The position numbers were made by a program, and so were the translations under genes. A DNA stretch of 38,761 nt. It comes from Caldisericum exile (GTDB taxonomy: Bacteria; Caldisericota; Caldisericia; Caldisericales; Caldisericaceae). The stretch lies in assembly GCA_002877955.1 (NCBI GenBank), contig PNIL01000055.1:1-38761 (forward strand). The letters are read 5' to 3'. This document shows positions 31,735 through 34,957 of this stretch, piece after piece. The first letter of the stretch is position 1; the number at the start of each line of letters is the position of its first letter. The notes beneath the pieces are model-generated. The model saw only the letters and a program-made list of their open reading frames with translations. It was not told where the DNA came from and did no database searches.

Positions 31735-32472
31735 ATGGCAGAGAAACCTTTAGAAAAGGCTTTTAAAGAACGAATTGATGCCTTGGAGAAGATTGTAGGA
31801 CGGAAGATTCCCAAGAGATGCAGAGAAACCTTTATAACTGCAGTTACTCACTCATCTTTTTCAGGAGAACACAAAAATTACCGTTCGAATGAAAGGCTTG
31901 AGTTTTTGGGAGATTCCGTCCTTTCGCTTTCAATCACTCATTATCTTCTCTGCACTTATAAGGATTTAACTGAAGGTGAATTGAGTAGAAAAAGGGCTTA
32001 TCTTGTTTCCGAAAAGAGCCTTTCAAAAAAAGCAGAGATTGTTGGAATTGGAGATTTAATGCTCTTTGGAAAGGGAGAAAATAAAAGTGGTGGTAAATTT
32101 AAAGGAGCAATTCTTGCAGATGCATTTGAGGCATTAACAGCTGCAATATTTCTGTGCTTCGGTTTCGAAGAAGCAGAAAAATTTATAACGAATGTTTTCA
32201 AAACAGAACTTGAGAATGCAGGTAGCATTGAAACTATTGACGCAAAAACAAAACTGCAAGAGAAAATTCAAAAGGTCATACATAAAGTCCCTGAATACAG
32301 AATTGTGAAAGAGGAAAAGATCGACGATACAAAATATTTTGTTGCGGAAGTAAGGCTCAACGGAAAAGTTTTAGGAGAAGGAAAAGGAAAAACTAAGAAA
32401 GAAGCAGAAGAAAAAGCTGCTGAGGTTGCACTTGAGAATGAATATATTCGAGAAATTGAAAAATCTGTTTAG
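31735..32472 (+). CDS. rnc: Ribonuclease III
   Basis: Cuts double-stranded RNA in rRNA maturation and mRNA turnover. 245 residues. The catalytic domain has the signature NERLEFLGDSVL with acidic metal ligands, and the second acidic motif is ADAFEALTAAIF. The C-terminal double-stranded RNA-binding domain (about 165-235) has DAKTKLQEKIQK and GKGKTKKEAEEKAAEVAL. The ribosome-binding site is poor, so translation may be coupled to rpmF. The last 35 bp overlap ftsY. Confidence 0.96.
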   Translation: MAEKPLEKAFKERIDALEKIVGRKIPKRCRETFITAVTHSSFSGEHKNYRSNERLEFLGDSVLSLSITHYLLCTYKDLTEGELSRKRAYLVSEKSLSKKAEIVGIGDLMLFGKGENKSGGKFKGAILADAFEALTAAIFLCFGFEEAEKFITNVFKTELENAGSIETIDAKTKLQEKIQKVIHKVPEYRIVKEEKIDDTKYFVAEVRLNGKVLGEGKGKTKKEAEEKAAEVALENEYIREIEKSV

Positions 32473-33271
32473 CAAAAAGGATTTAGCAACAGAAGAAATT
32501 GAAGAATTTCTTATTTCAAAAAATTTCGGAATAAAGTTCACAGAAGAGTTTATAGAAAAGCTTAAGGAAAGCAAAATTGACTATTTGGAGCTTTTTGAAA
32601 AACTAATTAGAGAAACATTCAACAGTGTTGATACAAAAGTTAATACGGATGGGCCAAAGCCTGTGATTTTTGTCTTTGCTGGATCAAATGGATCTGGCAA
32701 AACAACAAGTATTGCAAAAATAGCAAATTACCACAAAAAGAGAGGATTTAAAAATATTTTACTTATCGCAGGTGACACCTTTAGATCTGGTGCAACGGAA
32801 CAGCTCTCAATATGGGCAGAACGTATTGACGTTGATATAGTTAAAGGGCAATCAGGTCAAGACCCTGCAAGCGTTGTATTTGATGGACTTTCAAAAGAAG
32901 GCATCTATGATCTAATTCTTGTTGATACCTCAGGAAGAGTCGAAACAAATGAAAACCTACTTAGAGAATTAACAAAAATAGAGAAGGTTATACTTAATAA
33001 AAAAGGACATATAAATGAGGTTTTTCTTGTACTTGATAGTCTCACAGGCTTGAATGCATTTAATCAAATGGAAGCATTCGTAAAAGCAATAAATGTTACA
33101 GGCATTATACTCACTAAATTCGACTCAAATAGTGCACCAGGAGTCGTTGTTCCAATTGTTCAAACCTATAAAATCCCAGTTAAATTCATTGGAACAGGTG
33201 AGGGAATTGAAGATTTAGAAGAATTTTCTGTCGATACTTACATACACAAACTAACGGGAGGTACTAAATGA
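32438..33271 (+). CDS. ftsY: SRP receptor FtsY
   Basis: Membrane receptor GTPase for the signal recognition particle. At 277 residues it consists of the NG domain only, without the acidic A domain found in E. coli. Motifs: G1 GSNGSGKTTS, DTFRSGATEQL (where DTFRAAA is usual), G3 DTSGR and G4 TKFD. The G4 loop reads TKFDSNSAPG, unlike the usual TKLDGTAKGG. I chose ATG 32438; the frame is open 12 bp further to a TTG. It lies inside the end of rnc and overlaps ylxM by 4 bp (ATGA). Confidence 0.93.
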   Translation: MNIFEKLKNLFSKKDLATEEIEEFLISKNFGIKFTEEFIEKLKESKIDYLELFEKLIRETFNSVDTKVNTDGPKPVIFVFAGSNGSGKTTSIAKIANYHKKRGFKNILLIAGDTFRSGATEQLSIWAERIDVDIVKGQSGQDPASVVFDGLSKEGIYDLILVDTSGRVETNENLLRELTKIEKVILNKKGHINEVFLVLDSLTGLNAFNQMEAFVKAINVTGIILTKFDSNSAPGVVVPIVQTYKIPVKFIGTGEGIEDLEEFSVDTYIHKLTGGTK

Positions 33272-33636
33272 AAAACATAACGCCAAGAGAAAAGAAACTT
33301 ATAAAAAAAGCAAGAGTAAAAGAATTACTGGAAGTTTATTCAAATTTACTCACGGATAAAGAAAGAAAGATTCTCACACTTTATACTGACCCAGCCTTAA
33401 GTGGAGCTGCCATTGCAAAGAAGTTAAAAGTTTCAAGGCAGGCAATTCATGATCACATAAGACGTGGCATCAACAAAATGGAAAGATGTGAAACAAAATC
33501 AAAATTATTAGAAAAAAGAAGAAGAAAAATGAAAATATTCCTTGAAATTGAGGGCATCCTTTCCAAAAAAGAACTCTCAAAAGAGGATGTGCAAACTTTG
33601 AATAAACTATTTGAACAATTAAAAGACTTGGATTAG
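33268..33636 (+). CDS. ylxM: YlxM-family HTH protein
   Basis: A 122-residue protein of the UPF0122/YlxM family, which is encoded beside ffh and ftsY in Gram-positive bacteria and modulates SRP in streptococci. It has a sigma-70 region-4-like helix-turn-helix at about 25-70: LLTDKERKILTLYTDPALSG, then AAIAKKLKVSRQAIHDHIRRG. Its ATG overlaps the ftsY stop, and the following gene is ffh, so all three are translated together. Confidence 0.92.
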   Translation: MKNITPREKKLIKKARVKELLEVYSNLLTDKERKILTLYTDPALSGAAIAKKLKVSRQAIHDHIRRGINKMERCETKSKLLEKRRRKMKIFLEIEGILSKKELSKEDVQTLNKLFEQLKDLD

Positions 33637-33646
33637 GAGGCATACC

Positions 33647-34957
33647 ATTTTTGAATCTTTAAAGGAAAGCATAAACACAGTCCTTAAAAAGCTACGTTCA
33701 AAAGGCCATTTAAGTGAAGCAGATATAAAAGCAGCTATTAAAGAAATTAGACTTGCACTACTTGAAGCAGATGTTAATTATAAGCTTGTAAAAGAAATTA
33801 CCGAGAAAGTTGAAACTGAGGCAAAGTCCTCAAAAGTGCTAGAGAGTTTCACTCCCGCTGAACAAATTTTGTCAATTTTATATTCAGTCCTTGTAGACTA
33901 CGTTGGACACTCAGAAAAGCTAAAACTTCATGGAGGTAAAAACTTCATTATACTTGTAGGTTTACAGGGAAACGGTAAAACTACCACAGCTGCCAAACTT
34001 GGATATTATCTAAAGAAGAAATTAAATTACAATCCAATTCTTGTGCCTTTTGATTTCAAACGTCCTGCAAGTTTCGATCAACTTATTCAACTTGGAAAAT
34101 CAAATGACATTGCTTATCTTGATTTAAGAAATGAAGAAAATATGAGAATTGCTCTATCTAAAATTGATTCATATATGGAAAAAAATGGTTTTAATGTCGC
34201 TATCATAGATACTGCTGGGAGAAAAGAGATCGACACCCCTCTTATGGAAGAATTGAAGTTAATAAACAACTATTTTGAGGATCCAGAGACACTCATGGTA
34301 ATGGATGTTACCTTGGGACAAACCTCATTGGATATAGTAAAGGGCTTTAAAGAATATCTCAAGATAACAGGGGGCATATTTACAAAATTTGATTCATCTG
34401 CTAAAGGTGGTAGTGTTTTATCCTTTAAATATGTAACGGGGAGCCCTGTAAAGTTTGTTGGAACCGGAGAAAAAATTCAAGATCTTGAACCATTTGACGG
34501 CGATGCTCTTATTTCAAGATTGGTTGGAAGAGGAGATTTAAAAGGACTCTTTGAAAAGGCACAAGAGGCAATTTCTCTTGAAGAGAGTGAAAAAATAGCA
34601 AAAGATTTCCAAAGTGGAAATTTTGACTTAAATGATTTAAAGATGCAACTTGAAAGTCTTCTTAAAATGGGAGGACTATCGAAAGTATTCTCAATGCTTC
34701 CAAATTTTTCAAATCTAAAGATTCCAAAAGAGTATATGGATGAAAAGGCATTGAGAAGGATGATTGCTATCATAAACGCAATGACAAAGGAAGAAAGAGC
34801 ACATCCAGAAATTATAAATGCATCAAGAAAAGAACGCATTGCTAAGGGCACTCATGTAAGCAAAGCAGAAGTAAATCAACTTCTCAAAAACTTTGAAAAT
34901 TTCAAAAAATTATCGAAAAACCTTAAGAATCTTGATATATCAAAATTTAGATTTTAA
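33647..34957 (+). CDS. ffh: Signal recognition particle protein Ffh, ATT start
   Basis: SRP54 homologue that binds signal peptides and 4.5S RNA. The full frame gives 436 residues, the normal length. The N-terminus FESLKESINTVLKKLRSKGH is in-frame from ATT at 33647, which lies 6 nt after a perfect AGGAGG. No ATG, GTG or TTG is available there, and the first GTG (33836) would delete the N domain. GTPase motifs: VGLQGNGKTTT, PFDFKRPASFDQL, DTAGR and G4 TKFDSSAKGGS (usually TKLDGDAKGG). The M domain has SRKERIAKG and ends LKNLDISKFRF with few methionines. The stop overlaps that of the convergent transporter gene. Confidence 0.88.
   Translation: MFESLKESINTVLKKLRSKGHLSEADIKAAIKEIRLALLEADVNYKLVKEITEKVETEAKSSKVLESFTPAEQILSILYSVLVDYVGHSEKLKLHGGKNFIILVGLQGNGKTTTAAKLGYYLKKKLNYNPILVPFDFKRPASFDQLIQLGKSNDIAYLDLRNEENMRIALSKIDSYMEKNGFNVAIIDTAGRKEIDTPLMEELKLINNYFEDPETLMVMDVTLGQTSLDIVKGFKEYLKITGGIFTKFDSSAKGGSVLSFKYVTGSPVKFVGTGEKIQDLEPFDGDALISRLVGRGDLKGLFEKAQEAISLEESEKIAKDFQSGNFDLNDLKMQLESLLKMGGLSKVFSMLPNFSNLKIPKEYMDEKALRRMIAIINAMTKEERAHPEIINASRKERIAKGTHVSKAEVNQLLKNFENFKKLSKNLKNLDISKFRF

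Follow-up and report, generated by a model that had tools for sequence, protein, structure and literature searches.

Does the ffh gene of Caldisericum exile begin with ATT, and if so, is this weak codon a kept feature of the gene? The window, i.e., the whole stretch of DNA analysed here (38,761 nucleotides of contig PNIL01000055.1), raises this question at its ffh locus (Table 1). Ffh is the protein of the signal recognition particle (SRP), which delivers membrane proteins in the cell, and AUU is a very inefficient start codon. A first-pass annotation had claimed that a perfect AGGAGG is followed after 6 nt by an ATT in the frame of ffh, that no ATG, GTG or TTG occurs at the right position, and that starting at the first GTG would cost 63 residues. 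The window sequence bears out the first of these claims, and inspection of the frame agrees with the others: between the upstream TAA (33620) and the GTG (33836) the ffh frame of the window holds no ATG, GTG or TTG, and initiation at this GTG would remove exactly 63 residues.

Table 1. Position of the features discussed in the text (window coordinates, or locus handles for coaBC).
Feature	Position	Strand	Remarks
ffh, SRP GTPase, 436 aa	33647-34957	+	ATT start; TAA stop included; matched by TIGR00959 and by solved structures
ATT start codon of ffh	33647-33649	+	Sits at the conserved Met position of Ffh
Shine-Dalgarno (SD) AGGAGG of ffh	33635-33640	+	6 nt (CATACC) to the ATT; pairs with the anti-SD of G003, a relative, at -10.2 kcal/mol
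TAA, in-frame upstream limit of the ffh frame	33620-33622	+	
GTG, earliest in-frame canonical start	33836-33838	+	63 codons into ffh, inside the conserved N domain; not the real start
ylxM	33268-33636	+	YlxM profile E 1.4e-17, under its cut-off; TAG stop (33634-33636) overlaps the ffh SD
ftsY, SRP receptor	32438-33271	+	TIGR00064 E 2.6e-76; inside the listed ORF 32426-33271; putative start ATG 32438
coaBC loci seemingly with an ATA/ATC start	L190, L191, L194, L196-L199, L203		

The position of the start was deduced from the homologous proteins. Residues 2-432 of the window Ffh match residues 4-437 of a solved Ffh structure (7o5b chain g) over the full length, and the TIGR00959 profile covers residues 2-424. 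In both alignments the N-terminus of the homologues (M-F-E/D) falls on the ATT codon. Since the matches run from residue 2 onwards, the N-terminus belongs at the ATT. The window protein contains PF00448, and the M domain (PF02978) was detected in the relative G003. With its conserved N-terminus at a non-NUG codon and no usable NUG in the window, ffh can be placed, on sequence grounds, among the genes with non-NUG starts. The window protein scores 431 bits with the TIGR00959 profile, under the cut-off of 473 bits, so that automatic naming may miss this gene; motifs such as PFDFKRPAS look diverged.

We searched 61 genomes for relatives of the locus. The family counts 18 genomes, and the ffh start region could be read in 14 of them, including the window's own; a contig end cuts the region in G012, and there was no ffh match in G001, G005 and G017. 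All 14 genes start with ATT (10) or ATC (4), each preceded by a strong SD. The ATT is found in the four genomes of the window's genus in which the region is available, and in G011, G006, G009, G007, G013 and G008. Within the family, the ATC is confined to the four genomes of genus g7. Outside the family, ffh starts with GTG in f2, with ATG in f3, with ATG, GTG or TTG in f7, and with ATG in further genomes. A search of viral contigs gave nothing, and a search of genome contigs gave distant relatives only. The relatives that keep ATT or ATC share 73-92% protein identity with the window Ffh within the genus and 51-57% within the family, and retention of the codon over such distances is more than expected by chance. 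The comparison of relatives, which the annotation had proposed as a check, supports its claim that ffh begins with ATT, and we regard this observation as confirmed. It also indicates that the weak start of ffh has been retained and does not stem from a sequencing error.

The start codon is exceptionally conserved. We aligned the 14 ffh genes and scored the Ile columns in the ten genomes outside g7. Twelve columns encode Ile in all ten genomes, and the start is the sole one with a single codon throughout; later Ile codons in these genes are ATT (226), ATA (204) or ATC (102). Single-codon columns make up 5 of the 143 invariant columns in the ten genomes (M and W left out), a comparison that holds between columns of the same genes, as the genomes are not independent samples.

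Several explanations would do without an ATH start, and we weighed them against these data. It is extremely improbable that an ATG was misread or misassembled, or that the gene is decayed. The window's assembly is indeed incomplete (55%, 64 contigs), but the same codon occurs in other assemblies, one of which consists of one contig (1,558,103 bases), and the ffh frame is intact and conserved. We therefore rejected a read error, given the conservation of the codon in relatives. Initiation at another site is improbable as well. In six of the 14 genomes (g5, g7) a TTG or CTG lies two codons 5' of the ATT/ATC and could serve as start, as could another non-canonical codon close to the SD. Yet the remaining eight genomes (g1, g3, g4, g6, g8), among them the window's genus, lack any NTG from the nearest in-frame stop to the ATT. 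The SD core of g5 and g7 is 2-3 nt from the TTG/CTG vs 8-9 nt from the ATT/ATC, which places the upstream codon poorly with respect to the SD, and the predicted SD pairing extends close to this codon. The protein is conserved from the ATT codon onwards, and the residues before it vary, except for those encoded by the SD. Because of the TTG/CTG two codons upstream, the ATH start is only probable in the six genomes of g5 and g7.

It is very improbable that Ffh is made as a fusion with YlxM, by frameshifting or stop bypass, and needs no start of its own. The two genes are close enough for this: the distance from the end of ylxM to the ATT/ATC is 10 or 14 nt in 13 of the 14 genomes. However, the frame offset between them differs among subclades (1 or 2), which argues against a conserved YlxM-Ffh fusion. 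Moreover, G004 retains the AGGAGG-6-ATT arrangement of ffh with no ylxM homologue found upstream, where about 250 bases (L008, 1250-1500) contain no obvious gene. Judging from this locus, ylxM is shown to be dispensable for keeping the ATT codon. We rejected the frameshift fusion on the basis of the offsets and of G004.

The elements that would serve initiation at this codon are ordinary, as judged in the relative G003. In the family, the ffh SD pairs with the anti-SD at -9.6 to -14.0 kcal/mol. The median over the start sites of G003 is -8.5 kcal/mol, and 41% of them pair at least as strongly as the ffh SD of the window. Thus, the SD of ffh is strong but not exceptional, and is ordinary for the genome. 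G003 encodes three tRNAs with a CAU anticodon, one of which bears the initiator G-C triplet, and the anti-SD of its 16S rRNA is normal (GGATCACCTCCTTT). This led us to reject a special initiator tRNA or an altered anti-SD in G003. IF3 (PF00707) is encoded in the window's genome and in 15 of the 17 other genomes of the family.

We surveyed ATH starts by comparing the whole of G003 with 1.08 Mb of G007 (892 aligned ORF pairs, some of them spurious). We retained genes whose conserved N-terminus, in G003 as well as in G007, lies ahead of every plausible NTG start, judging by eye the 69 pairs that were flagged. A scan of one genome alone for an SD with a missing NTG was too noisy, and antisense ORFs dominated the comparison of two genomes when it was left unfiltered. 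The only genes to stand out in both genomes were ffh, infC and coaBC, and a genome-wide shift to ATT starts was rejected on this account. For infC we surveyed 16 loci, eight of which were read on the wrong strand. In the readable members (L117, L119, L120, L123, L126, L130) an SD of the type GGAGGTGA precedes an ATT, and in G007 (L131) the start is ATA. The resemblance of ffh to infC put forward in the annotation therefore extends to this family, whose own infC combines a strong SD with ATT or ATA. For coaBC, eight of the 14 family members seem to have the start 7 nt after a GGAG (ATA in seven, ATC in G006), and the remaining six start with ATG or GTG. ATH starts thus appear to be a restricted habit of the family, and ffh, unlike coaBC, has one in every readable member. 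Since part of the family has ATA or ATC in coaBC for no known reason, weak starts may be tolerated and need not always be regulatory. The annotation had not anticipated the ATC of g7, the partial sharing of the trait by coaBC, or the persistence of the ATT in G004 with no ylxM homologue before it. Other candidates came from one genome. In G007, obg (contig C7, minus strand) perhaps starts with an ACG placed 6 nt after AGGAGG. A gene for an MJ0936-like phosphodiesterase (contig C1, minus strand) has a candidate ATT start in G007 vs an ATG in G003.

From conservation one learns that the weak codon has been retained, but nothing about its function. The further suggestion of the annotation, that inefficient initiation could tune the level of SRP, is plausible. 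We consider it probable that the ffh start is a conserved weak start that is discriminated by IF3 and limits the synthesis of Ffh. The ordinary initiator tRNA would start translation at the AUU (AUC in one genus), guided by the strong SD about six bases upstream. The codon would be retained by selection since its presumably reduced efficiency caps Ffh synthesis. IF3 destabilises initiation complexes on non-NUG codons, and the output of Ffh, like that of infC in these genomes, would most likely depend on its activity. The benefit might be to hold Ffh in proportion to SRP RNA, FtsY or ribosomes. IF3 represses the non-canonical starts of sigR (GTC, Streptomyces) and infC (PMC5472188), and AUU and AUA starts with an extended SD reduce protein output in Staphylococcus aureus (PMC13009471). 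Together these precedents suggest that the AUU caps Ffh synthesis and makes ffh sensitive to IF3; for ffh itself, we infer control by IF3 from the analogy. It is unlikely, by our assessment, that the AUU simply fixes a low level of Ffh suited to a small need, with IF3 activity hardly varying and no real regulation. A weak start alone does lower output (PMC13009471), and the need for SRP may be relaxed in the class, as sister families apparently lack it. The same effect could be had from a weaker SD or from a GTG/TTG start, but all members keep a strong SD with AUU or AUC; this makes a merely fixed level less likely.

The apparent absence of SRP concerns three other families of the class (f4, f5, f6), represented by 11 genomes (G020, G021, G024, G025, G028, G029, G032, G033, G036, G037, G039) with a completeness of 69-97%. 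In these genomes we found no SRP54-type GTPase above the family cut-off (Ffh or FtsY), no SRP M domain, and neither the small nor the large SRP RNA. SecY was found in all 11 and YidC in ten. Members of f1, f2 and f3 gave positive results in these searches (the large SRP RNA was sought in f1 alone). The whole SRP pathway appears to have been lost in f4-f6, and our limited searches of the literature found no paper on such a loss. In the window's own family, G005 (91% complete) has neither Ffh nor FtsY, with a weak match to the large SRP RNA (40.5 bits, under the cut-off), which suggests incompleteness or a recent loss. A broader reading is conceivable, although we hold it to be rather doubtful: SRP synthesis in this family would be wired to IF3 through the AUU, coupling the stringency of initiation to protein targeting, within a wider relaxation of SRP dependence in the class, where three other families apparently lack Ffh, FtsY and SRP RNA.

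These results matter for annotation and beyond. AUU starts are invisible to gene callers, and an automatic caller would here trim 63 residues from Ffh. To our knowledge, few natural genes have a firmly established AUU start, and a literature search for a non-canonical start of ffh found no report. With an AUU/AUC start on a core gene throughout a family, one can test whether weak starts hold a targeting factor in proportion to the translation apparatus. The suspected loss of SRP in sister families, if confirmed, would go against the notion that all cellular life has SRP; it would also be a natural equivalent of the bypass of SRP observed in Escherichia coli mutants.

Starts of this kind have precedents, among them infC, the gene of IF3. 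It starts with AUU in E. coli, with ATC in Streptomyces and with AUA in S. aureus. Like ffh it has a strong SD, an AUU-type start and no canonical start nearby, a layout that recurs in the family's own infC. The difference is that the product of infC regulates its own gene, whereas Ffh is no initiation factor, so that control of ffh would act in trans. Like ffh, sigR of Streptomyces is a gene with a non-canonical start that does not encode an initiation factor (PMC5472188). Yet the codon of sigR is GTC, the gene and phylum are different, and control by IF3 was shown experimentally. In the ccpN (AUA) and cvfC1 (AUU) genes of S. aureus, too, a strong and partly extended SD precedes a non-canonical start, and this arrangement is conserved between species; these genes differ from ffh in encoding a regulator and a small protein, and their starts were proven by Ribo-Ret and reporters (PMC13009471). 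In E. coli, the AUU start of pcnB limits the gene product (Binns and Masters 2002, as cited in PMC13009471), which is what we propose for ffh, but for another gene and with experimental demonstration. Finally, suppressors of SRP loss in E. coli fall in IF2, IF3 and RS3, and one SRP-lacking suppressor strain carries changes in IF2 and IF3 together (PMC7844537). This last strain makes it plausible that initiation and the requirement for SRP are functionally linked. These suppressors likewise tie the need for SRP to initiation, but they are laboratory mutations and not a natural circuit built on a start codon (PMC7844537). The kind is already known from infC, pcnB, sigR and ccpN; ffh is a new gene within it, noteworthy because the start is conserved on a core gene.
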